Shown here: positions 38,894 through 50,947 of the stretch, one piece after another
Layout of the letters: each line of letters begins with the position of its first letter
Position numbering within the stretch: position 1 is the stretch's first letter
Source: Runella sp. MFBS21
GTDB lineage: Bacteria > Bacteroidota > Bacteroidia > Cytophagales > Spirosomataceae
Length of the DNA: 64,000 bases
Direction: 5' to 3'
Assembly: GCF_029433105.1 (NCBI RefSeq)
Contig: NZ_JARNTW010000002.1
Coordinates: forward strand, 475,744 to 539,743
Program-made: the position numbers and the translations under genes
Notes under the pieces: model-generated
Database searches by the model: none
What the model was told of the DNA's origin: nothing
Seen by the model: only the letters and a program-made list of their open reading frames with translations

Positions 38894-40039
38894 TTAGAAG
38901 ATAGACGCAATGGTTTCTTCAGAATAGCCTCCACTTGAGGTCATGCCTTTGCCCCCAATCCCGGTGATGATTCGGATGTGGTCATCTATCTGATGTTCGT
39001 ATATTTCGTCGGTGGTTTGGCTATAAAAGCCCGCCCAACTTGTCTGGATTTTTTCTACTGGAAAACTCACGATTCGCTTGGCTTCCTCAATCATCAATTG
39101 ATTGATATAATCGCTCAGATGATAGCCCAAATCGTCCACGTTTTGGGCACCTGCATATTCGTGCGAATCTCCCACCACAATTGAGCCATCCAAAGCCTGC
39201 TTAAATAGGATATGAATACCCCATTTTTTGAGTTCTTCCAAATGCGGTGGCGTCGTAAGACTTGCATAAGAAGGACATTGCTGAAACGACTCGTAGCGTC
39301 TGATGGTAAGTCCCGTAAGAATATTGCCCTTCATTGCTATTGCTGGAAAAGGGATGGTTTGGAGCATTTGGAGTTTGCTTACCACCAATCCACTTTGCGC
39401 AAACAAATCAGGATACAACATCCGAAATTCGTGACCATTGCAAATCAGCACCTGTTCGGCTTCAAATTGTTTACGATTTGTCAAAGTGACCTGTGCTTTT
39501 CCATTGGTGCTTTCACAATTGGTAACGGTAGCGTTGTTAAGATAAGTTACCCCCGTTTGTGTAGCACAATACGCCAAAAATCGCTGCATTAGAAGAGGCG
39601 AATCGACGGTTACTTCCTCAGGAAAAAAAATCGCCCCTACGGGATATTCATTTCTCAAATAAGGGTATTGGGCAAGGCAAGCTTCTCGACTCAATAGCTC
39701 ACACGGATAGCCTATTCCTACATAATAATCATACAGCTCGTTGGCAACCTGCCACTCGTCGGCATCAGAGGCAATATAGACTGAGCCGTTTTTCCGAATG
39801 GTCAAATCAGTTTTTGATTGTAAATCATGATACAGCTCCAAGCTTCGTTTGCCATACGTAAACCATCGTCCGGCAAGGCCGGAAGGTACTACTTGCCCAA
39901 AATTGCGAACTGTAGCTCCTACAGGGAAGTTGTCTTTTTCAAGAAGCAATACTGATTTGTTGCGTTTGGCGGCATGATAGGCGTGAAAAGTCCCCATAAT
40001 ACCCCCTCCTACCACAATCAAGTCAAAATGTGTTTTCAT
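38894..40039 (-). CDS. FAD-dependent oxidoreductase, TIGR03364-type (aminophosphonate-linked)
   Basis: This 381-aa enzyme is of the glycine-oxidase/DadA (DAO) fold. The N-terminal Rossmann motif is VVGGGIMGTFHAYHAAK. The segment GATVRNFGQVVPSG is characteristic of the TIGR03364 clade, and the C-terminal second dinucleotide loop is ITGIGGKGMTSSGG. That clade is known to occur beside PhnX-like hydrolases and phosphonate transporters and is proposed to oxidise an aminophosphonate close to 2-aminoethylphosphonate, releasing the aldehyde. Here it lies 49 bp downstream of exactly such a PhnX-like gene. The fold and clade are well supported; the substrate is an inference. Confidence 0.85.
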   Translation of the reverse strand: MKTHFDLIVVGGGIMGTFHAYHAAKRNKSVLLLEKDNFPVGATVRNFGQVVPSGLAGRWFTYGKRSLELYHDLQSKTDLTIRKNGSVYIASDADEWQVANELYDYYVGIGYPCELLSREACLAQYPYLRNEYPVGAIFFPEEVTVDSPLLMQRFLAYCATQTGVTYLNNATVTNCESTNGKAQVTLTNRKQFEAEQVLICNGHEFRMLYPDLFAQSGLVVSKLQMLQTIPFPAIAMKGNILTGLTIRRYESFQQCPSYASLTTPPHLEELKKWGIHILFKQALDGSIVVGDSHEYAGAQNVDDLGYHLSDYINQLMIEEAKRIVSFPVEKIQTSWAGFYSQTTDEIYEHQIDDHIRIITGIGGKGMTSSGGYSEETIASIF

Positions 40040-40088
40040 GTGTATAAATACTAAATCTGAATGCCTATTCTTGTAACAAAAATCTAGG

Positions 40089-40826
40089 TTAAATTTTTAC
40101 TTTGGCATCTTCTAAAATATTGATGATCTCATCCACTGACCCAAGCAAGGCATCGTGGGGATGAGACACAAGTTGCTCCATGGTATGAGTGCCATTGATG
40201 ACCCCTAAATTTAGGTATACTCCTGCGGCAGCACCAGATTGCAAATCAGAAGGGGTATCGCCGATGTTGATAACTCGCTTGGTGTCTGTAACACCTAGTA
40301 GACGCATCGCTTTCTGAATCATCAGGGGAGCGGGGCGGCCTTTTTCTACTTCATCGCTGGCAATAGAAGCTTGGATGATGGTAGCGTTGGTGCCTACTCG
40401 GTTTTCGTCGAGTCCTTCAAGCCAGCCTAGCTTTTCCAAAATAATATCAGTTACAACTCTGTAAAACCCTGTTGTCAAAGCGACTTTAATGCCTTGATTT
40501 TTAAGGTAATCAAACAGCTCAAGGCATCCTTTTGTTGGAAAAACGGGTTGTGTGCGATAATGCTCTTCTAGTACTTCTTTAAAAATAGCATACGATTCAT
40601 CGACTTTGGTCTGAATATCTGGATGACCTTCGCCAAGGTTTTGGGTCCAAAACATTTCAAAAACAAATCTTTTAGCCAAGCCTTGGGCGGCTAAGATTTC
40701 TTCATCAGAGGCTTTCAATCCCGACATCTTAGCTGCTTTGGCAAAACAAGCCTCTACCTCGTGTTGGTCTGTAACGGTGGTACCCGCCATATCAAAGACC
40801 ACTAGCTCAATTGGTTGCTGCTGCAT
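40089..40826 (-). CDS. PhnX-like phosphonatase (HAD superfamily, TIGR03351-type)
   Basis: This 245-aa hydrolase is the closest type of HAD protein to phosphonoacetaldehyde hydrolase. The nucleophile motif is DMAGTTV (Asp12; DxAGT is typical of phosphonatases). Lys52 in QGLAKRF sits where PhnX has its Schiff-base lysine. EKGRPAPLMIQKA carries Arg in place of the usual HAD lysine, and GDTPSDLQSGAAAG supplies the metal acids. These features indicate C-P bond cleavage of phosphonoacetaldehyde or its 1-hydroxy form. ATG 40826 is chosen over 40856 to match the family N-terminus. It is the first gene of a two-gene operon with the FAD oxidoreductase. No PhnW is present, as is usual for this clade. 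Confidence 0.87.
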   Translation of the reverse strand: MQQQPIELVVFDMAGTTVTDQHEVEACFAKAAKMSGLKASDEEILAAQGLAKRFVFEMFWTQNLGEGHPDIQTKVDESYAIFKEVLEEHYRTQPVFPTKGCLELFDYLKNQGIKVALTTGFYRVVTDIILEKLGWLEGLDENRVGTNATIIQASIASDEVEKGRPAPLMIQKAMRLLGVTDTKRVINIGDTPSDLQSGAAAGVYLNLGVINGTHTMEQLVSHPHDALLGSVDEIINILEDAKVKI

Positions 40827-41113
40827 ATGGTTTATTTCAACTTTAGAATGATACAATGGTAATATTTTTCAAAGGCAAAGTTAACAAACTTCAAATTAAA
40901 GTTTAGCTAAAATATACTTTTTGTTGCAAAATTTATAAACCTAAAAGCGGTTTTGGGTGATTTTTAATGCGTTGAGAAGTGTTTAGTTATATTAAAAAAA
41001 ATATTAATAATTACTTCACTATTAGTTAACTATTTATTAATTTCACTAAACTTAATTTGCATTGAGTTTAGTATGTCTATGTTCTTCATTTTCCACGTAA
41101 ACCAATCAAAGTT
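40827..41113. promoter_or_regulatory. Divergent control region between PhnX-like and SusC-like genes
   Basis: This 287-bp, very AT-rich gap must hold promoters for both directions of the phosphonate locus. Visible items are an AAACTT / AAGTTT inverted repeat near 40889-40907, a perfect TAGTTAACTA palindrome (41023-41032) and TTAATTTG (41052-41059), one base off TAnnTTTG. I could not identify a Pho box with confidence. Confidence 0.4.
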
Positions 41114-44100
41114 ATGCATTCTTTTTTACCTCAAAAACGCTGGAGGAATCCTTGGGTGTCAGTATTTCTATTGGCATTTTTATTGAGCACTACTATACTT
41201 GCACAAGAAGTAACGCTGCAAGGGACAATTACAGATGCCGACAACAATACCCCTCTACCGGGAGTAAGTATTGTGGTGAAAGGTACTAATCAGGGTACCA
41301 ATACCGATGCCAACGGCAAATACCGTATTAATACCTCTTCTTCGGCTACTTTGGTTTTTTCGTTTGTTGGGTATAGTGCCCAAGAAGTGGCGGTGGGCAA
41401 TCGCACTACGATTGATTTGAAAATGAGCCAAGACCTCAAGCAACTTCAAGAAGTAGTAGTAACCGCACTTGGGATTCAGAAAGAAAAGAAAACATTGGCC
41501 TTTGCTACTCAAAGTGTCAAAGGTTCTGACCTTATCAAAGCCCGCGAACCCAACCCTATCAACTCGCTTGTGGGTAAAGTAGCAGGCTTAAACGTAGGGG
41601 CAAGTGCGGAGCTTCTGCGCGCACCTCAGGTATCCCTCCGTGGGGGAGCACCCTTGTACGTAGTAGACGGGATTCCTATCAACTCCGATACTTGGAATAT
41701 CAGCCCTGATGATATCGAATCAATGGACGTTTTGAAAGGGCCTTCTGGTACGGCTTTGTATGGCTTCCGTGCTCAAAATGGGGTCATCATGATTACGACC
41801 AAAAAAGGTTCTAAAGACAAAAGAGGCTTCTCAGTAGATGTCAATTCATCTACCATGTTTGATAAAGGATTTATTGCTATTCCCAAGGTACAAGACCAAT
41901 ACGGCCCCGGCGACCACGGCAAATATGCGTTTGTGGATGGCCGTGGTGGTGGAGTAAACGACGGAGATTACGACATCTGGGGGCCTCCATTGGATGGTCG
42001 TCTTTTGCCTCAGTATGACAGTCCTATCGACCCTGCCACCGGCAAAAGAATTCCTACTCCTTGGCTGCCAAGAGGTAAAGATAATTTGACTCGATTTATC
42101 CAAACAGGGATATTGTCAAACAACAACGTGTCGGTAGCAGCAAGCAATGACAAAGCGGATATTCGGGTGTCGCTTTCGCACCAATACCAACGCGGCGTAA
42201 TTCCTAATACTCAGCTCAATATCACCAACCTCAACACTTCTTTGGGCTATAATTTTTCCAATAAACTGCGTTTTGAGAGTACGGTCAACTATAGCCGTCA
42301 ATATACTCCCAATATCCCTGATGTAGATTATGGTCCCAACTCCCTTATCTACAACTCTATCATCTGGGGAGGCGCCGACTGGAATGTAGATGATATGAAA
42401 CAACTATGGCAGCCTGGTAAGGAAGGAATCCAGCAAATCTATGCGGAGTATCAACGCTACAACAACCCCTGGTTTGTGGTAAAAGAGTGGTTGCGTGGAC
42501 ATTACAAAAACGATATTTATGCGTACGCTTTGGGTAAATACAAAATCAACGATTTCTTGAATGCTCAGTTGCGTACTCAAGTCACTACTTACGACATCCT
42601 TCGCACCGAAAAAATGCCTTATTCCGCTACTTCTTACGGACGTGAAGAAGCGCGTGGCGATTACCGCGAAGACCGTCGTAATTTGTGGGAAAACAATACC
42701 GACCTTTTGATAAATTTTGATAAAGAAATCGTTAAAAACATTACGTTGAAAGCTTCGGTAGGGGGAAGTATGCGTCTTTTTAGATACACCTCCAACTTCG
42801 CCTCTACCGATTATCTCAACGTGCCTGGCGTCTATAGTTTTTCCAACTCTCGCAATCCTGTACAAGCCTACAATTTCCAGTCTTACATGCGCGTGATGAG
42901 TGGCTACTATGCTGCCGACTTGTCTCTTAGTAAATATGCCAATATTTCACTGACAGGCCGTTGGGACAAAACTTCTACGCTTCCTTCTGGTCGTAATGTC
43001 GGATTTTATCCATCAGTGGGAGTGACTAGCGTTATCTCAGATTATGTAAAACTACCAGACGCGATTACTTTTTTGAAAGTGCGGGCGTCGTTTGCACGGG
43101 TAAAAGAGGCATTTACCCAAGCTAATATTGGGGTTCCGCCGGGTGCTCCTGTTTATTATGGTGCCAATTACAACTCTTCGTATGACGGGCCAAGTTACGG
43201 AACTACAGTGGCTTATAACATTTCGCGTCCTTACAACAACGAAGCCGCCGCTTACTATTCTAGCAGCTTGATTGATCCCAACATCCAGCCTTCGAGCCGT
43301 ACCAACTACGAAGGGGGTGTGGAAATGAAGTTTTTGAACAACCGTCTTGGATTAGACGTGACTTATTTTAGCTACTTAGACGGTCCTCGTATTTTTGGAT
43401 TGACGCTACCCGAATCTACGGGTTATGGAAGTTTGACCACCAACGGTATCAAGTCTCAGCGCAAAGGATTGGAGATAGCTGTTAGTGGCAACGTCATCAA
43501 AAATGCCAATGGATTTAACTGGGATGTGCTCGCCAACTGGTCTACTTGGCAAGAAACGCTGCGGGAGATTTATGGCAACCAAACCCGCTTGAACCAATTC
43601 TATAAAATCGGTGACCGCCTAGATGCTTATTATGGAACGGCTTTTGTGCGTACGCAAGATGGGCAGATTGTAAACGATGCGAGTGGGCGTCCTATCTACA
43701 ATCCCGTTTCACAGTTTTTAGGTTATACCAATCCTGATTGGACGTTTGGCTTCCAAAACAAATTCAGCTACAAAAACTTCAATTTTAGCTTCCAGTTTGA
43801 CGGACGTATCGGGGGTGTCATCGAAAATTATATCCAAAAACAAACCTTCCGTGGTGGGCGTCATATTGCCACCGTTCAAGGAGATATGGGCGTGGCTCGT
43901 TTGGCCGACACCGAAGGCCGTAAGACTTGGGTAGGCCCAGGCGTAGTATTGACAGGTGGCACGATTAGCTACGACCCAGATGGCAAAATTTTAAACTATG
44001 GCGAATTGAAATTCACCCCTATGTCGACTACCTATGCTACTTATCTCCAAGACTGGATTAGCCGCTATTACAACTCGACGGAAGGAAATATCATGAACCG

Positions 44101-44329
44101 TACCTTTGTAAAACTCAGAGAAGTTCAGGTGGGATACTCATTACCAGCAGGGCTTTTGGGTAAAAACATCCGCCAAGCCACTATTTCTTTGGTAGGTCGT
44201 AATTTGCTGTACTTTGCTCATTCAAAAGACCTTGATGTGGAGCAATTTGTCAACTATAGCAACCGCTCTTCGTCACTACAAACACCTACGTTGCGTCGTT
44301 ATGGTATCAATATCAACTTCACCTTCTAA
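41114..44329 (+). CDS. SusC/RagA-type TonB-linked outer-membrane transporter
   Basis: This is a 1071-aa outer-membrane barrel. A signal peptide ends near TTILAQ. A carboxypeptidase-regulatory-like domain lies at ~35-110 (LQGTITDADNNTPLPGVSIVV, GTNTDANGKYRI). The TonB-box-like region LQEVVVTALG is followed by a plug with APLYVVDGIPIN and ESMDVLKGPSGTALYG, and a barrel ends YGININFTF. With the SusD-like lipoprotein 12-51 bp downstream it forms a pedal-bin importer. Such pairs usually take up glycans or peptides; here the flanking genes point to a phosphonate-bearing ligand. No ECF sigma-dependent signalling extension is present. Confidence 0.93.
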   Translation: MHSFLPQKRWRNPWVSVFLLAFLLSTTILAQEVTLQGTITDADNNTPLPGVSIVVKGTNQGTNTDANGKYRINTSSSATLVFSFVGYSAQEVAVGNRTTIDLKMSQDLKQLQEVVVTALGIQKEKKTLAFATQSVKGSDLIKAREPNPINSLVGKVAGLNVGASAELLRAPQVSLRGGAPLYVVDGIPINSDTWNISPDDIESMDVLKGPSGTALYGFRAQNGVIMITTKKGSKDKRGFSVDVNSSTMFDKGFIAIPKVQDQYGPGDHGKYAFVDGRGGGVNDGDYDIWGPPLDGRLLPQYDSPIDPATGKRIPTPWLPRGKDNLTRFIQTGILSNNNVSVAASNDKADIRVSLSHQYQRGVIPNTQLNITNLNTSLGYNFSNKLRFESTVNYSRQYTPNIPDVDYGPNSLIYNSIIWGGADWNVDDMKQLWQPGKEGIQQIYAEYQRYNNPWFVVKEWLRGHYKNDIYAYALGKYKINDFLNAQLRTQVTTYDILRTEKMPYSATSYGREEARGDYREDRRNLWENNTDLLINFDKEIVKNITLKASVGGSMRLFRYTSNFASTDYLNVPGVYSFSNSRNPVQAYNFQSYMRVMSGYYAADLSLSKYANISLTGRWDKTSTLPSGRNVGFYPSVGVTSVISDYVKLPDAITFLKVRASFARVKEAFTQANIGVPPGAPVYYGANYNSSYDGPSYGTTVAYNISRPYNNEAAAYYSSSLIDPNIQPSSRTNYEGGVEMKFLNNRLGLDVTYFSYLDGPRIFGLTLPESTGYGSLTTNGIKSQRKGLEIAVSGNVIKNANGFNWDVLANWSTWQETLREIYGNQTRLNQFYKIGDRLDAYYGTAFVRTQDGQIVNDASGRPIYNPVSQFLGYTNPDWTFGFQNKFSYKNFNFSFQFDGRIGGVIENYIQKQTFRGGRHIATVQGDMGVARLADTEGRKTWVGPGVVLTGGTISYDPDGKILNYGELKFTPMSTTYATYLQDWISRYYNSTEGNIMNRTFVKLREVQVGYSLPAGLLGKNIRQATISLVGRNLLYFAHSKDLDVEQFVNYSNRSSSLQTPTLRRYGININFTF

Positions 44330-44380
44330 GCGTCGCTTCTTGTGAATGTTTTTTTCAAAATGACAAAACACTTTAAGACA

Positions 44381-45949
44381 ATGAAAAATAAAAACATATA
44401 TACCGTTTTTGTCTTTGGGCTAGTACTGTTATTGAGCAGTTGCCAAAGTTTCCAAGAACTCGAAGTAAACCCCAACGTACCCGTAAGTTCTCCCCCAAAC
44501 TTGGTACTGAATGCTGTTCAGAATAGTTTCAATGAGCGTCCTTGGGGTAAAGAAACCCGCTGGAATCAATTTTATACCATTAATTACAACTATTACGGCA
44601 ACAACGAATACGACTGGACTACCTCAGGTACTTACTTTGATGCGCTCAAAAATGTAATCAAGATGGAAGAAGAAGCCAAGAAAGTGACTGGAAAAGACCT
44701 GAATCCTTATTCGGCTTTGGGTAAGTTTTTCAAGGCGTATTTCTTTGTATGGATGACCCAACGCCTCGGTGATCTTCCTATGAACGACGCCCTCAAAGGC
44801 ACCGAAAATATGACTCCTAAATACAATTCGCAAAAAGAGGTATATCTCCAATCGCTCAAGTGGCTCGACGAAGCTAACGACGATATGGGCAAATTGATTG
44901 CCTCAGGAGATGTGTTTTTTCAGGGAGACATCTATCTTGGCAACAACCTCCGCCAATGGCAAAAAGTCGTGAATACGTTTAAACTTCGGGTATTGGTGTC
45001 GTTAAGTAAAAAAGAAAGCGATGCCGATCTCAATATCAAGACGCGTTTTGCGGAAGTGCTCAACAACCCCACCAAGTTTCCAATCATGGCAAGTATGAGC
45101 GATAATTTGGCTTATAAGTACAACAATACTTATAACAAATATCCTCTCAATCCCGACAACTTTGGTTTTGACGCCACTCGTCAGCAGATGTCCTCTACCA
45201 ATATCGACATTCTGAAAAGTATCCAAGACCCGCGCATTTTTTATATAGCCGAGCCCGCCGAAGCCCAAATCAAAAAGGGCCTCGCGCAAACAGATTTTGC
45301 GGCTTTTGTAGGAGCTAGCCCCGCCGAAAGCTTAGACGATATGTCAACGAAAGCGCTAAATGGTCAATATTCGTTTATCAATCGCAATCGTTATTATCGC
45401 AACTATACCCCCGAAAATACGATTCAAATTGGCTACATCGAAATGTGCTTCAATATCGCCGAAGCCCTCAACCGTGGTTGGGCAGCTGGTACGGCCGAAG
45501 AGTGGTATGTGAAAGGCATTCAGGCTTCGCAAGGTTTCTTTGACATCAAAAATGGTGACAATACCGTAGTACTCGAAACCCGTAATGGCGCCAATGCCTC
45601 TTCGGCAAGCTATACAGTGAAGTTCAATTGGGCTGATTTTTATGCGCAAGCAGCTGTTAAATATGCCGGTAACAACGCCAAAGGTCTGGAACAAATCCTT
45701 ACTCAAAAGTACTTGGGCTTCTTTATGAACTCTGGCATGGAAGCTTTTTACAACTGGCGCCGCACAGGCTACCCTGCCAATTTTGCCAAAGGTGGGCCTG
45801 GTACGGGAAATTCGGGCGTCATCCCGCGTCGGTGGTTGTATCCCAACTCTGAGCGGATTTACAACGAAACCAATTATAAAGTTTCTGTCCAATCGCAGTT
45901 TGGCAAAGCAAGTGAATCTGTCAATGATGAACTATGGATTTTAAAGTAG
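44381..45949 (+). CDS. SusD/RagB-like lipoprotein (SusD-like_2 type)
   Basis: This outer-membrane surface lipoprotein has signal peptide MKNKNIYTVFVFGLVLLLSSC with lipobox LSSC. In-frame starts at 44360 and 44342 are possible but only lengthen the n-region. The mature part is helix-rich with TPR-like segments (YSALGKFFKAYFFVWMTQRLGDLPM, ILTQKYLGFFMNSGMEAFYNWRRTG, landmarks only), the hallmark of the SusD-like_2 group. It should cap the SusC barrel and bind the substrate. A terminator follows, so later genes have their own promoter or rely on read-through. Confidence 0.9.
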   Translation: MKNKNIYTVFVFGLVLLLSSCQSFQELEVNPNVPVSSPPNLVLNAVQNSFNERPWGKETRWNQFYTINYNYYGNNEYDWTTSGTYFDALKNVIKMEEEAKKVTGKDLNPYSALGKFFKAYFFVWMTQRLGDLPMNDALKGTENMTPKYNSQKEVYLQSLKWLDEANDDMGKLIASGDVFFQGDIYLGNNLRQWQKVVNTFKLRVLVSLSKKESDADLNIKTRFAEVLNNPTKFPIMASMSDNLAYKYNNTYNKYPLNPDNFGFDATRQQMSSTNIDILKSIQDPRIFYIAEPAEAQIKKGLAQTDFAAFVGASPAESLDDMSTKALNGQYSFINRNRYYRNYTPENTIQIGYIEMCFNIAEALNRGWAAGTAEEWYVKGIQASQGFFDIKNGDNTVVLETRNGANASSASYTVKFNWADFYAQAAVKYAGNNAKGLEQILTQKYLGFFMNSGMEAFYNWRRTGYPANFAKGGPGTGNSGVIPRRWLYPNSERIYNETNYKVSVQSQFGKASESVNDELWILK

Positions 45950-45977
45950 TATTTTCACATAGGTTTAAAATTGAAGA

Positions 45978-46010
45978 TAAAAGTGGGAGTAGATTTCTCT
46001 CCCACTTTAT
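45978..46010 (+). terminator. Terminator after the SusCD pair
   Basis: AAAGTGGGAG / CTCCCACTTT form a 10-bp stem with a 9-nt loop, extended by A/T pairs, followed by ATTCTATTTTTG. It begins 30 nt after the SusD stop. Confidence 0.75.
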
Positions 46011-46076
46011 TCTATTTTTGAAGAAGGCGTGTAATGTGTTGTTTAGCAATCACTTACGGTTAACGGATAACGAACA

Positions 46077-46089
46077 ACCGTGCTTTAGT
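46077..46089. repeat. Copy 1 of shared 13-mer ACCGTGCTTTAGT
   Basis: This 13-mer occurs here, 48 nt before the phosphatase-like gene, and again at 47979-47991, upstream of the next TonB-type gene. It could be a shared control element or a fragment of a dispersed repeat. Confidence 0.35.
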
Positions 46090-46136
46090 ACTTAATTTCT
46101 TAAACCCAACTCTCTCTAAAACCCTCCTGTATGCTT

Positions 46137-47222
46137 ATGAAAAAAGTGTTATTAAGTATTTCTTTCTTTTGGGTGTTTACAGTAGCTTATACCCAACGCC
46201 AAACCGAAAATATCATCTTAATCACCACCGACGGCTTGCGATGGCAAGAGGTGTTTGGGGGAGCTGACTCTAGTCTTTTATTTGATGCGACTTATACAAG
46301 CGATACGGCCAAACTCAAAAAACAATTTTGGGCTAATACTCCCCAAGAACGCCGTCAAAAATTGTTGCCTTTTTTTTGGGAAACAATCGCCAAACAAGGC
46401 CAACTCTACGGCAATCGCTGGAATGACAGCCGCATGAATATTTCCAATACTTACTGGTTTAGTTATCCAGGCTACAGCGAAATATTGTGTGGCTATGTAG
46501 ATGACCAAATCAACTCCAACGATAGCAAAGACAACCCCAACACGACTGTTTTGGAATTTATCAATCAACAACCCAAGTACAAAGGGAAAGTGGCTGGCTA
46601 TGCTACTTGGGATGTGATTCCGCATATTGTCAATGAAAAAAGAAGCGGTATCCCCGTCAATGCAGGCCATGAAGCCGTAAGTGGTACGAACCTTACCGAG
46701 CGAGAAAAATTATTGAACGAAATCCAAGAAAAACTGCCCAGCCCTTGGGGGATGACTCGTCAAGATTTCATTACGTACTATATGGCCAAAGAATATATTC
46801 AAAAAAATAAACCCAAGGTATTTTTCTTATCTTTCGACGAAACTGACGACTATGCTCACGCCGGGAAATATGATAACTATCTCCAAACCGCTCATATGGT
46901 AGATGCTTTTATCGCAGATTTGTGGCAATACCTCCAATCCCAACCTCAGTATAAAGGCAAAACTACTATTGTGCTTACAACCGACCACGGTCGTGGACAT
47001 ACCCCCAAAGCGCGCTGGAAAGACCACGGCACCAAAACCCCCGATTGTTTTCAGATATGGATGGGTGCTATGGGGCCTGATACCCCCGCATTGGGCGAAG
47101 TAAAAACCGAAAAAGTATTGTTTCAAAATCAAATAGCCCAAACTTTGGCGCACTTTTTAGGATTAGATTTCAAATGTGAACACCCCGTAGGAGAAGCAAT
47201 TCCCACGGTTTTAAAAAAGTAA
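46137..47222 (+). CDS. Secreted alkaline-phosphatase-superfamily hydrolase
   Basis: This 361-aa protein has a signal peptide (MKKVLLSISFFWVFTVAYTQ) and a fold of the alkaline phosphatase / phosphodiesterase / phosphopentomutase superfamily. Metal-ligand regions are visible: LITTDGLRW near the N-terminus, SFDETDDYAHAGKYDNY (Asp, His), VLTTDHGRG (Asp-His) and KDHGTK (His). The candidate nucleophile is the Ser or Tyr region in SYPGYSEILCG. It could remove phosphate or a phosphonate headgroup from a larger ligand outside the inner membrane, fitting between the SusCD importer and the PhnZ-like gene, which starts only 5 bp after it. The substrate is unknown; sulfatase or phosphonoacetate-hydrolase-like activity is not excluded. 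Confidence 0.82.
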   Translation: MKKVLLSISFFWVFTVAYTQRQTENIILITTDGLRWQEVFGGADSSLLFDATYTSDTAKLKKQFWANTPQERRQKLLPFFWETIAKQGQLYGNRWNDSRMNISNTYWFSYPGYSEILCGYVDDQINSNDSKDNPNTTVLEFINQQPKYKGKVAGYATWDVIPHIVNEKRSGIPVNAGHEAVSGTNLTEREKLLNEIQEKLPSPWGMTRQDFITYYMAKEYIQKNKPKVFFLSFDETDDYAHAGKYDNYLQTAHMVDAFIADLWQYLQSQPQYKGKTTIVLTTDHGRGHTPKARWKDHGTKTPDCFQIWMGAMGPDTPALGEVKTEKVLFQNQIAQTLAHFLGLDFKCEHPVGEAIPTVLKK

Positions 47223-47227
47223 ATAAT

Positions 47228-47791
47228 ATGACACCTACTACCTCTCTCGACGAAATACGTCGCTTATTTGAAGCACAAGGCGATGAGCAATACTATGGCG
47301 AAGATGTAAGCCAACTCGAACATGCGGCCCAAGGAGCAGACCTCGCCCGTAAAGCAGGCTACGATAAAGAAGTACAAGTAGCGGCGTTTTTGCACGATAT
47401 TGGGCATCTTATGCCAGCCGCACAAGAAGAAGAACTTATGGCTATATACGGTCGCAAAGACCACGAGGAAGTGGCCGCCGATTGGCTACGTGACCAAGGC
47501 TTTCCCGAAAAAGTATGCGTGCTGGTGGCCAACCACGTAAATGCCAAGCGGTATTTGACTTACAAAAATCCAAAATACTTTGCAGGATTGTCGGAAGCAA
47601 GCCGTAAAACTTTGGAATTTCAAGGAGGACCAATGCAAGCAGAAGAGGCTACACAGTTTGAACAGAATCCTTATTTTGAGCTAATCATTCAGATGCGGCG
47701 GTGGGATGAAGCCGCTAAAGTAACAGGCCTAGCCAAGCCCGATTTAGAAAAATATCTATCGCTGTGCGAAGAGGTGTTAGGCCAATCTTAG
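47228..47791 (+). CDS. PhnZ-like HD-domain mixed-valent di-iron oxygenase
   Basis: PhnZ cleaves (R)-1-hydroxy-2-aminoethylphosphonate to glycine and phosphate. This 187-aa protein keeps the PhnZ pattern throughout: Tyr22 and Glu25 in YYGEDVSQLEH with His32, the HD pair His56-Asp57 with His60 in LHDIGH, His79, His103 and Lys107 in NHVNAKRYL, the stretch LSEASRKTLEFQGGPM, and Asp160 in MRRWDEAAK. By comparison with the PhnZ sequence as I remember it, these correspond to Y24, E27, H34, H58-D59-H62, H80, H104, K108 and D161. It is cytoplasmic. The companion 2-oxoglutarate dioxygenase PhnY is not in the window. This is the strongest single indicator of phosphonate catabolism here. Confidence 0.9.
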   Translation: MTPTTSLDEIRRLFEAQGDEQYYGEDVSQLEHAAQGADLARKAGYDKEVQVAAFLHDIGHLMPAAQEEELMAIYGRKDHEEVAADWLRDQGFPEKVCVLVANHVNAKRYLTYKNPKYFAGLSEASRKTLEFQGGPMQAEEATQFEQNPYFELIIQMRRWDEAAKVTGLAKPDLEKYLSLCEEVLGQS

Positions 47792-48115
47792 TTCTTATTT
47801 CAACTTAGTAAAATACCCAGACCACTAATAGCTCGACCCGATTCATTGTTTGGGTCGAGCTGTGAAAACCATCGAAAAACAAAACCTTTGACGAGGTATT
47901 GCTACCTCGCTTTCTTCTTTTATTCCCTAAAATATACATAGTATTGGTTTGTGGAGAAGGATAATATTTTCTGTTAGCACCGTGCTTTAGTCCATTTAGC
48001 TTTATCGGTAAATACTCCCAAGGTCGTCGGTATTCTTGGCTGTTTCATCGCTTTTCGGTAGATGTGGGCTAAACCTTTTGCTATTTTATTTTTCAAAGGA
48101 AAAATACCATACACC
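47792..48115. other. Intergenic region with two hairpins and a repeated 13-mer
   Basis: This 324-bp gap holds a perfect 10-bp hairpin (47830-47861, AGCTCGACCC / GGGTCGAGCT), a second 7-bp hairpin (47892-47909, CGAGGTA / TACCTCG) followed by CTTTCTTCTTTT, and the second ACCGTGCTTTAGT at 47979-47991. The second hairpin with its pyrimidine tract is a likely terminator for the PhnZ-like gene. Confidence 0.55.
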
Positions 48116-50947
48116 ATGTATATATCACGCATACTCTATTTATTCCTCGGTGTGATTGTAAGCACCACCTCATTATTAGCCCAAAACGTAGATGTAAAAG
48201 GCCGCGTTGTGGATGGCAGTGACCAATCTGCCCTTATTGGCGCCAATGTTTTATTGGTCAGTCGTGCCGACTCCACCGTTCGGTTCGGAACAGTCGCCGA
48301 CACCGTGGGGGCCTTTACTTTTAGAAATATTCCGACAGCCAGCTATCGCTTGATGGTTTCGTTTATTGGCTATACCAATCATGACCAACAGATAAATCTT
48401 CGCCGAACAAGCCCCGATTTAGGCAAAATTGAAATGAAAGCCGACGGGCAGCTCCTCAATGATGTGATTGTGAAGGGCATGGCCGAGCGGGTGGTGCAAA
48501 AAGGAGATACTACTATCTATAATGCGAGTGCTTTCAAGACCAATCGCGATGCTTCGGCGCAAGATTTGATTGAAAAAATGCCCAACATTACCATCGAAAA
48601 TGGGCAAGTAAAAGCCCAAGGCGAAAATGTACAACGCGTAACAGTAGACGGACGCGAGTTCTTTGGAGATGATGCCACATTGGCGCTCAAAAACCTACCT
48701 GCCGAAGTGATTGATAAAATTCAGGTATTTGACCGCTTGAGCGACCAAGCGCAGTTTACGGGTTTTGATGATGGCCAAACTACCAAAACCATCAATATCG
48801 TCACGCGCTCTGACCGAAATAATGGGCAGTTTGGGAAACTATATGCAGGCTACGGAACCGACGGCCGCTACATGGCGGGCGGTAGTACCAATTACTTCAA
48901 GAAAGACACGCGTATTTCGCTCATCGGTATGACCAACAACATCAACCAGCAAAACTTTGGTAGTGAAGATTTACTAGGCGTTTTGGGCGGTTCTGGCGGC
49001 GGTGGTGGCGGCAATCGTGGCGGCGGTGGCAATCGCGGTGGTGGTGGCAACCGTGGCGGCGGCGGCGGTAATTTTGGCGGCGGAAATGCTAGCTCAAATT
49101 TCTTGTCGGGACAGCAAGGAGGTATCAACAAAACCCACGCAATAGGTCTCAATTATTCTGACAATTGGGGTAAAAAATGGAAAGTAACGGGAAGTTATTT
49201 TTTCAATGATGCCAACAACAACAACGAGAGCCAATTAGCTCGTACTTTTTTCTCCACCCAAGGTACTGGACAATTGTATAACGAAGATTATTTTTCGGCT
49301 AGCAACAACACCAATCACCGTTTTAATGCCCGTTTAGAATATACTATCAATACCAAAAACTCAATCATTTTCACTCCTCGTTTGAGTTTCCAAGACAATA
49401 CCTCTTATAATACCCTTTTTGGCGCTAATAGCTTGGCTGGACAGCCTTTGAGCCAAACTCAGACTGACAATCAGGCCAATACCAAAGGCTATAATTTCAA
49501 TAATAACATTTTGTGGAGACACCGTTTTGGTAAAATTGGCCGCACGCTTTCGGTAGGTCTTACTACTTCGGCCAATGACCGTAATGGAGAGTCATCTCTC
49601 GAATCAGTCAATCGCTATTTTGGGCGTTTGACGTCAGATTCTTTGCAGATTACAGATCAGAAAACAGAGACTTCTGGCAGCGGCTATACGATTTCGGGTA
49701 ATATTTCCTTGACCGAAAATGTGGGTCGCGGTGGGCAATTGCAGTTGAATTATGTGCCTAGTTATACCAAAAACTACTCTAGTCGTAATACTTATAATTA
49801 TGACCAAAGTACCAGCGAATACAGTACGCCTGATTTGAGACTTTCTAATGAGTTTGACAATACTTATATCACCAATCGTATTGGAGGAAGCTACCGGATG
49901 CGTATCAAAAAAACAATGGTGACCGCCGAATTAAATTATCAAAATGCGCAACTTAGTGGAATGCAAAACTTCCCACAGAAGTTTGAAACAGTGCGTAGTT
50001 TCAACAATATCTTACCTTCGGCGATGTTGATGTATCGTGGAACCGACGGAAAAAGCCTGCGTATTTTTTATCGCACTTCTACCAATGCACCTTCTATCAG
50101 CCAATTGCAAAACGTAGTGGATAATTCAAATCCATTGTTTCTCAAAACAGGGAATCCTGATTTGAAACAAGAATACAACCACAATATGTCGGTTCGGTAT
50201 GGTTTGACAAACGCCAAAAAAGCACAGAGTTTCTTTATCAATGTCAATGGGTCGTTTACCCAAAACAATATCAGCAATACCACCTTCATTGCCACTAAAG
50301 ATACGGTAGTAGCAGGTTTTCCGCTGAAAATAGGCTCGCAGTTTAGCCAGCCTGTAAACGTAAACGGCAACTGGAACATTCGTTCGTTTATCACTTATGG
50401 ATTACCCGTAAAATCGTTGAAAAGTAACCTAAACTTTAATCTAGGAACGGGCTATACACGTACGATTGGGTTGATCAATTATGCCCAAAATACTTCCAAT
50501 ACTCACTCTATTACGGGAGGATTGGTGTTGAGTAGCAATATCAGCGAACAACTTGATTTTACTTTATCGGTCAATGGAAACTACAATACCGTCACTAACA
50601 CCCTTCAGCCTGCTTCCAACGGAACTTATTATTATCAAAATAGTAACTTCAAACTCAACTGGCTGACCAAAGCAGGTTTCTTTGTCAATACCAACCTCAA
50701 CCATACCTTTTACACAGGTTTGGGACAAGATTTCAATCTCAACTTTACATTGTGGAATGCGGCGGTGGGTTATAAATTCTTGAAAAACCAAGCAGGAGAG
50801 TTGAAACTAAGCACTTTTGATGTATTAGGTCAAAACAATAGTATTAGTCGTAACGTCACCGAAACCTATATCGAAGACCTCAAAACTCGAGTATTGCAGC
50901 GTTATTATATGGTAACTTTCACTTACACTTTGCGTAATTTTCGGTAA
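48116..50947 (+). CDS. TonB-dependent-receptor-type outer-membrane protein with Gly-rich insert
   Basis: This 943-aa protein starts at ATG 48116 (MYISRILYLFLGVIVSTTSLLAQ signal). A carboxypeptidase-regulatory-like domain (VKGRVVDGSDQSALIGANVLL) is followed by a plug (NITIENGQVKAQGENVQRVTVDGREFFGDD) and an OMP_b-brl_3-type barrel ending TFTYTLRNFR (landmarks only). Residues ~291-325 (48986-49087) are a run of GGGGNRG units, which may form an exposed loop. No SusD partner follows. Such receptors import siderophores, peptides or metals, or serve in signalling; the ligand is unknown. Hairpins upstream and downstream suggest a single-gene transcript. Confidence 0.9.
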   Translation: MYISRILYLFLGVIVSTTSLLAQNVDVKGRVVDGSDQSALIGANVLLVSRADSTVRFGTVADTVGAFTFRNIPTASYRLMVSFIGYTNHDQQINLRRTSPDLGKIEMKADGQLLNDVIVKGMAERVVQKGDTTIYNASAFKTNRDASAQDLIEKMPNITIENGQVKAQGENVQRVTVDGREFFGDDATLALKNLPAEVIDKIQVFDRLSDQAQFTGFDDGQTTKTINIVTRSDRNNGQFGKLYAGYGTDGRYMAGGSTNYFKKDTRISLIGMTNNINQQNFGSEDLLGVLGGSGGGGGGNRGGGGNRGGGGNRGGGGGNFGGGNASSNFLSGQQGGINKTHAIGLNYSDNWGKKWKVTGSYFFNDANNNNESQLARTFFSTQGTGQLYNEDYFSASNNTNHRFNARLEYTINTKNSIIFTPRLSFQDNTSYNTLFGANSLAGQPLSQTQTDNQANTKGYNFNNNILWRHRFGKIGRTLSVGLTTSANDRNGESSLESVNRYFGRLTSDSLQITDQKTETSGSGYTISGNISLTENVGRGGQLQLNYVPSYTKNYSSRNTYNYDQSTSEYSTPDLRLSNEFDNTYITNRIGGSYRMRIKKTMVTAELNYQNAQLSGMQNFPQKFETVRSFNNILPSAMLMYRGTDGKSLRIFYRTSTNAPSISQLQNVVDNSNPLFLKTGNPDLKQEYNHNMSVRYGLTNAKKAQSFFINVNGSFTQNNISNTTFIATKDTVVAGFPLKIGSQFSQPVNVNGNWNIRSFITYGLPVKSLKSNLNFNLGTGYTRTIGLINYAQNTSNTHSITGGLVLSSNISEQLDFTLSVNGNYNTVTNTLQPASNGTYYYQNSNFKLNWLTKAGFFVNTNLNHTFYTGLGQDFNLNFTLWNAAVGYKFLKNQAGELKLSTFDVLGQNNSISRNVTETYIEDLKTRVLQRYYMVTFTYTLRNFR

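Follow-up and report, generated by a model that had tools for sequence, protein, structure and literature searches.

Within a 64,000-nucleotide stretch of the Runella sp. MFBS21 genome (contig NZ_JARNTW010000002.1, positions 475,744 to 539,743; hereafter the window) lies a six-gene locus in which genes for a PbfD-type FAD oxidoreductase and a PhnX-like hydrolase diverge from those for a SusC/SusD (SusCD) pair, a secreted phosphoesterase and a PhnZ-like oxygenase. Our findings favor a reading of this locus, to which we assign a probability of about 0.6, as dedicated to the uptake and catabolism of bound aminophosphonates, the ligand, the order of events and the regulation being proposals of ours. 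The genes are inherited together and lie together across genomes; from this we infer a chemistry and an order of steps. All six genes are real and stand at the coordinates given in the original prediction, as the open reading frames (ORFs) of the 64-kb window and the profile matches confirm.

The functional tie between the SusCD pair and the phosphonate genes, which the original prediction had proposed from co-location at one site, is now strongly supported. An 18-sequence SusD alignment was used to collect SusD relatives from named genomes, and the best 80 of at least 470 were taken as loci for a reverse test. A phosphonate gene is present in 62 of these 80 (oxygenase 60, PhnX-like 40, PbfD 39, all three 36); among the 52 of them with full flanks (9 kb or more to either side), 44 have a phosphonate gene and 32 have all three. 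Approached from the oxygenase, 46 gene neighborhoods (one per genome, the window's own left out) contain SusD in 34 cases, a PhnX-like gene in 31, PbfD in 27, DUF5690 in 24 and a phosphoesterase in 27 (four kinds, lax threshold). By chance a SusD would be expected within 10 kb in about 12.6% of cases, a figure based on 53 PF12771 places in the window's genome alone that may undercount other SusD types; of 19 control genes, likewise of the window's genome, 2 had a SusD that close.

These counts bear directly on the idea of an ordinary glycan utilization locus that sits by accident beside phosphonate genes. In its favor, SusCD pairs are mostly linked with glycans, and the window's genome has about 53 PF12771 SusD places; nevertheless, a chance of roughly 13% per gene compares with 34/46 observed, and we consider the idea highly improbable. 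No glycoside hydrolase or lyase domain was found in the six genes or in the scanned neighbor proteins, which are a part of all neighbors, and a polysaccharide utilization locus was rejected on that ground. Sugar-related matches among the scanned neighbors comprise glycosyltransferases and a single 3-keto-disaccharide-hydrolase-like domain, the latter beside one of the Dyadobacter loci that lack phosphonate genes. Homologues of the SusCD pair beside glycoside hydrolases, which the original prediction had named as the observation that would speak against it, were not seen in the scanned part of the neighbors.

Co-inheritance extends beyond physical linkage. In a survey of 241 genomes of the order, the oxygenase (TIGR03276 at E <= 0.001) occurs in 47, in 24 of these above the cut-off; PbfD (TIGR03364, above cut-off) occurs in 60 and DUF5690 in 57. 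PbfD is found in 46/47 oxygenase genomes against 14/194 others (p about 1e-35, uncorrected for kinship). SusD of the window type (363 bits or more) is present in 38 genomes, with four more holding distant matches only, and PbfD accompanies it in 35/38 genomes as against 25/203 lacking it; at a SusD identity of at least 50% the figure becomes 30/31. Within one genus (g4), the four genomes with SusD at 55-57% identity all possess PbfD, on another contig, and PbfD above cut-off is absent from G127, which has no window-type SusD, and from G139, where SusD identity is 48%. The oxygenase and SusD genome sets overlap. Chance co-location was rejected, being disfavored by genome co-occurrence and neighborhood counts alike.

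Membership of the pair in the SusC/RagA and SusD-like_2 families is clear from profiles above cut-off, adjacent genes and a SusD lipobox: SusC scores 483.8 against 368.25 bits for TIGR04056 and SusD 193.8 against 27 bits for PF12771 (SusD-like_2). Met14 and Cys34 of SusD are invariant in the 18-sequence alignment, and solved SusD homologues were matched. In a SusD tree that holds no other SusD as outgroup, nine oxygenase-linked SusDs with 27-31% identity form a second group, and the SusDs of loci L156 and L145 separate from that of the window. Two further loci, L089 (15194) and L091 (9432), carry a divergent second SusCD pair in tandem with the first in the same phosphonate cluster. A whole Spirosoma-like cluster is found in L099, titled Flavobacterium sp. 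SUN052, the SusD of which falls inside Spirosoma relatives; this may reflect transfer or a mislabelled genome.

The enzymes of the locus are consistent with two ways of breaking the C-P bond. PbfD passes the curated TIGR03364 cut-off (Table 1), and its product is predicted to oxidize N-methyl-2-aminoethylphosphonate (N-methyl-AEP) and/or 2-aminoethylphosphonate (AEP) to phosphonoacetaldehyde. According to PMC10590968, PbfD enzymes carry out this conversion of N-methyl-AEP, and for some also of AEP, and can replace PhnW; oxidation of N-methyl-AEP or AEP is known for PbfD1 and PbfD2. In the PhnX-like protein, Asp12 and Lys52 align with PhnX structures and are kept in 43/43 near-full-length relatives. 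We take these to be the nucleophile and the Schiff-base lysine, respectively. The oxygenase lies just above the TIGR03276 (Phn-HD) cut-off (218.6 against 214.6 bits) and below the TmpB and PhnZ1 equivalog cut-offs (152.9 against 300 and 144.9 against 300 bits). Its residues Y22, E25, H32, H56, D57, H60, H79, H103, K107 and D160, which presumably correspond to the metal-binding HD residues and the substrate-contacting residues of PhnZ, are present in 57/57 near-full-length relatives and align with PhnZ structures including 4mlm. It is predicted to cleave (R)-1-hydroxy-2-aminoethylphosphonate (R-HAEP), which PhnZ converts to glycine and phosphate; PhnZ homologues sometimes stand beside phnWX or phnWAY (PMC8154272). 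Thus, the locus reads as two putative cytoplasmic exits for two related headgroups, served by one shared importer.

In the window's genome, a search for PhnW returned 11 weak aminotransferase rows, none above cut-off, and no match was obtained for phosphoenolpyruvate (PEP) mutase or PhnJ; PhnA and PalA were not searched for. On the two empty searches, phosphonate biosynthesis and C-P lyase were rejected for this genome. The same result bears on the notion that the cell recycles its own phosphonolipids or phosphonoglycans, for which the report of 1-hydroxy-AEP in Bdellovibrio stolpii membrane lipids (PMC8154272) offers some precedent. With no PEP mutase match the genome has no known route to make phosphonates, and an outer-membrane importer points to external substrates; recycling therefore has very little probability in our estimate.

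The secreted phosphoesterase is the component that suggests a bound ligand. Its domain matches are PF01663 (33.5 against 23 bits), PF00884 (27.9 against 25) and PF01676 (27.4 against 24.3), and fold together with the two-metal ligand set places it in the PafA/NPP group. In its modelled fold it resembles PafA and NPPs; it likely has a two-metal site with Ser111 as nucleophile. A PDB sequence search returned weak matches only, NPP first. In relatives the slot is filled by alternative enzymes, namely YncE-propeller PF04185, metallophosphoesterase PF00149, NPP-like PF01663, PhoA PF00245 and GDPD PF03009. Full-flank oxygenase loci contain a phosphoesterase from one of the six families in 43/43 (lax) or 41/43 (strict) cases, and in the two that fail the strict threshold an NPP-like protein still scores 91 and 94 bits. 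Where phosphonate genes are absent, a phosphoesterase is present in 1/8 full-flank loci. By a crude measure of N-terminal hydrophobicity, which also flags 28/30 PbfD proteins and alone does not show secretion, the window's enzyme has a hydrophobic, signal-like N-terminus, as have 21/21 proteins of the alkaline phosphatase (AP) type, 35/35 of the YncE type and 3/19 of the metallophosphoesterase type, which suggests secretion for the AP and YncE types only.

Since a phosphonate in free form offers no ester for hydrolysis, the constancy of the phosphoesterase suggests that the substrates are ester-bound. The same constancy makes it improbable that the ligands imported by SusCD are small aminophosphonates in free form or phosphonopeptides, with the phosphoesterase serving another purpose. 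That proposal draws on the existence of a small-ligand SusCD-type system, NanOU for sialic acid (PMC3969230), and on the standing of AEP as the commonest natural phosphonate (PMC10590968); it would leave a phosphoesterase beside the oxygenase in 41-43 of 43 full-flank loci with no ester to act upon.

A further alternative is a general organophosphate-scavenging locus of the PUS type, in which SusCD would take phosphate mono- or diesters such as lipid headgroups, the phosphoesterase would free phosphate and the phosphonate enzymes would be mere neighbors, all serving phosphate starvation. Phosphatases do occur in Flavobacterium PusCD loci, which phosphate depletion induces (PMC8115612), the phosphoesterase fold is like that of PafA and NPPs, and one locus (L135) has window-type SusCD and phosphoesterases with no phosphonate gene nearby. 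It is countered by the way in which window-type SusD follows PbfD from genome to genome, including cases where the two are unlinked, and by the variable kind of phosphoesterase; a general scavenger would presumably not need such a tie. We judge this alternative unlikely, yet deserving of attention.

Exchange of parts in place is seen within Runella. Two loci (L084, L085) retain SusC at 87%, SusD at 82-83% and the oxygenase at 89-90% identity, with a YncE-type enzyme in place of the AP type. Conversely, Runella defluvii (L156) keeps AP at 80%, oxygenase at 86%, PbfD at 77% and the PhnX-like protein at 77%, with SusC at only 60% and SusD at 53%. By these identities, phosphoesterase and SusCD appear to have been replaced independently within the genus and oxygenase and PbfD to have been retained. 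L145 holds a PhnX-like protein of another type. Elsewhere, SusCD has a PF13528 glycosyltransferase and a metallophosphoesterase among its neighbors in 18 of the same best 80 SusD loci (L095, L096, L101, L144 and others); these resemble low-phosphate lipid remodelling genes listed in PMC8115612. A PHP-family histidinol-phosphatase-like gene is found in five oxygenase clusters (L031, L046, L052, L067, L075).

For the dedicated aminophosphonate locus that we favor, the following scheme can be drawn. SusD would cap SusC and capture AEP, N-methyl-AEP or 1-hydroxy-AEP esterified to lipid, sugar or another group, and import through SusC would be powered by TonB, as family membership suggests. By cutting a P-O-C ester, either in the periplasm or on the cell surface, the secreted phosphoesterase would release the aminophosphonate, which an inner-membrane carrier, DUF5690 being the best candidate, would bring in. 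In the cytoplasm, PbfD would turn (N-methyl-)AEP into phosphonoacetaldehyde and the PhnX-like enzyme would split this into acetaldehyde and phosphate; separately, the PhnZ-like oxygenase would convert R-HAEP into glycine and phosphate. All three reactions are known for the families concerned. Capture of a large ligand followed by trimming outside the inner membrane and C-P cleavage inside was the order originally put forward; it agrees with where the proteins are predicted to reside and with the recurrence of the phosphoesterase, and we retain it as a plausible sequence of events.

The candidacy of DUF5690 (PF18943) as an aminophosphonate carrier arises from its company. It recurs beside PbfD/PhnX genes (L166-L169, L175-L177, L180), shares 35 genomes with the oxygenase and 43 with PbfD, lying within 5 kb of the latter in 28, and its predicted structure is nearest an organophosphate antiporter. 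For a clear relationship to GlpT, profile comparison and a PDB profile search were both empty and thus gave no support. A Y-x-x-R-K motif near the DUF5690 N-terminus recalls GlpT by eye and is no test of kinship. DUF5690 is named in no paper of the literature searched, most subscription papers lying outside that search.

Several observations weigh against our interpretation. The missed curated cut-offs of the PhnX-like protein are one (TIGR03351, 187.4 against 218.9 bits; TIGR01422, true PhnX, 97.9 against 220). No PhnY* hydroxylase is present within the locus, so that the oxygenase needs a ready-made 1-hydroxy substrate, although eight PhyH-family matches elsewhere in the window's genome leave PhnY* hydroxylation possible. 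DUF5690 is unlinked to the locus in the window's own genome (L164:9836-11140), and neither profile search supports GlpT-family kinship for it. SusD is missing from 12/46 oxygenase neighborhoods, several of them on short contigs. The phosphoesterase reference proteins were picked from these same loci, and the metallophosphoesterase type seldom has a signal-like N-terminus by the crude measure. The survey statistics ignore kinship, so that p-values are overstated.

To these must be added the eight of 52 full-flank SusD relatives (among the best 80 of at least 470) whose surroundings lack phosphonate genes, namely five from Dyadobacter, one from Siphonobacter, a second copy in Terrimonas that has phosphoesterases, and one from a metagenome genome. 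Ten neighbor proteins scanned from three of these exceptions include DNA polymerase I, a prolyl oligopeptidase, trehalose-phosphate genes, a PAP2-type protein, a glycosyltransferase and similar; the scanned Dyadobacter neighbors recur at all five Dyadobacter loci. PbfD above cut-off is encoded elsewhere in 6/7 searchable exception genomes, including all five Dyadobacter, relative to a base rate of 60/241. Three of these five share PbfD coordinates with g4 genomes, so that the two tests overlap. The oxygenase above cut-off is found in none of the seven; two have lower matches, one of these at a distance of 81 bp to PbfD. In the five Dyadobacter genomes there is no oxygenase match at all. Hence, window-type SusCD can accompany PbfD without the oxygenase.

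The genome of the window comprises 7.88 Mb in 72 contigs, and the locus (Table 1) has spacings of 49 bp between PbfD and PhnX-like genes, 12 bp from SusC to SusD and 5 bp from phosphoesterase to oxygenase. Runella zeae DSM 19591 (L086) is the nearest named relative among the loci compared and arranges these genes in the same order, with identities of 97% for SusD, 99% for SusC and 96-98% for the remaining four proteins. The inverted repeat upstream of susC is kept in L086, has one base changed in one arm in L084 and was not seen in L145 or L156, whose SusCD differ from that of the window. Scans for sigma-70-type promoters and terminators gave no excess over shuffles. A gene for an XRE-cupin regulator, which may control these clusters, recurs in 11/46 oxygenase loci (e.g. 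L032:9341-9919), and none is present among the window ORFs beside the locus. The locus is followed by an OMP_b-brl_3 outer-membrane protein (window 48062-50947), which is no regular neighbor in the 46 oxygenase loci.

Table 1 Coordinates of the genes and candidate elements of the locus within the window
Feature	Position	Strand	Remarks
PbfD-type FAD oxidoreductase (TIGR03364)	38894..40039	-	347.7 bits, cut-off 285.1
PhnX-like HAD hydrolase, predicted phosphonoacetaldehyde hydrolase	40089..40826	-	ATG 40826; TTG start 40856 possible
Divergent intergenic region, between both arms	40827..41113	.	
Inverted repeat ACTAAACT-12 bp-AGTTTAGT, upstream of susC	41045..41072	.	possible operator
SusC TonB-dependent outer-membrane transporter	41114..44329	+	TIGR04056, PF13715, PF07715
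SusD lipoprotein	44342..45949	+	PF12771; likely start residue 14 (44381), lipobox Cys34
Secreted alkaline-phosphatase-superfamily phosphoesterase, PafA/NPP-like	46131..47222	+	PF01663, PF00884, PF01676
PhnZ-like HD-domain di-iron oxygenase	47228..47791	+	TIGR03276

It is tempting to speculate that the locus represents a new class, in which dedicated SusCD pairs of two SusD lineages serve ester-bound aminophosphonates (pieces of phosphonolipids or phosphonoglycans) together with a six-family phosphoesterase slot and a DUF5690 carrier; we advance this tentatively, at somewhat under even odds. If true, this would give a widely conserved SusCD group a class of ligands open to testing, extend the oxidase-plus-phosphonatase route from free to bound phosphonates and provide DUF5690 with a likely function. 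Such loci would also make bacteria a sink for phosphonolipids and phosphonoglycans such as those of soil amoebae. The idea of an amoebal source derives from a single passage of PMC8154272; in PMC3964302, lipophosphonoglycan and AEP are merely terms used for Acanthamoeba.

Comparison with known systems defines what is new. The original prediction held that no phosphonate SusCD locus had been described, which is too strong. In Flavobacterium, Lidbury et al. 2020 (PMC8115612) described PusCD pairs that are induced when phosphate is depleted and that lie together with phosphatases, phosphodiesterases and enzymes of phosphonate degradation, and the same work proposes that Bacteroidota move organic phosphorus via SusCD-like pairs; the term PusCD is also used in PMC8812569. 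The window shares with these a SusCD-like pair co-located with a phosphoesterase and phosphonate enzymes. It differs in that PusD1 and PusD2 of F. johnsoniae are PF07980/PF14322 (PMC8115612, Table 1) and the window SusD is PF12771, and the available text of PMC8115612 mentions neither growth tests on phosphonates nor genes of the PbfD, PhnX-like or PhnZ-like kinds. In the literature searched, to the extent that its text was available and with subscription papers mostly outside the search, we found no description of this gene set, and no proven phosphonate ligand for a SusCD-like pair. PusCD-phosphonate co-location itself is thus already reported; what is new is the conserved architecture, the exchangeable phosphoesterases, the two SusD lineages and DUF5690.

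The remaining comparisons concern single parts of the locus. Like the PbfD-PhnX clusters without phnW (Zangelmi et al. 2023, PMC10590968), the window has a TIGR03364-type oxidase and PhnX in place of PhnW; unlike them, its PhnX-like protein falls under the PhnX family cut-offs, and the available text of that paper, in the main body of which 'susc' and 'bacteroid' are absent, describes no outer-membrane importer or secreted phosphoesterase. As in the PhnY*/PhnZ pathway (PMC8154272), a PhnZ-like di-iron oxygenase could provide a side entry for R-HAEP, whereas the window locus lacks PhnY* and pairs this entry with PbfD and a PhnX-like protein. The role proposed for DUF5690 is that of AepP, the GlpT-like AEP permease (PMC8316502), and an organophosphate antiporter is the closest match to its model; it is, however, a separate Pfam family with no profile-level support for kinship and is unlinked in the window's genome. 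Finally, the locus resembles polysaccharide utilization loci in joining a SusCD pair and enzymes, and departs from them in combining a phosphoesterase with C-P enzymes and no glycoside hydrolase or lyase among its six genes.

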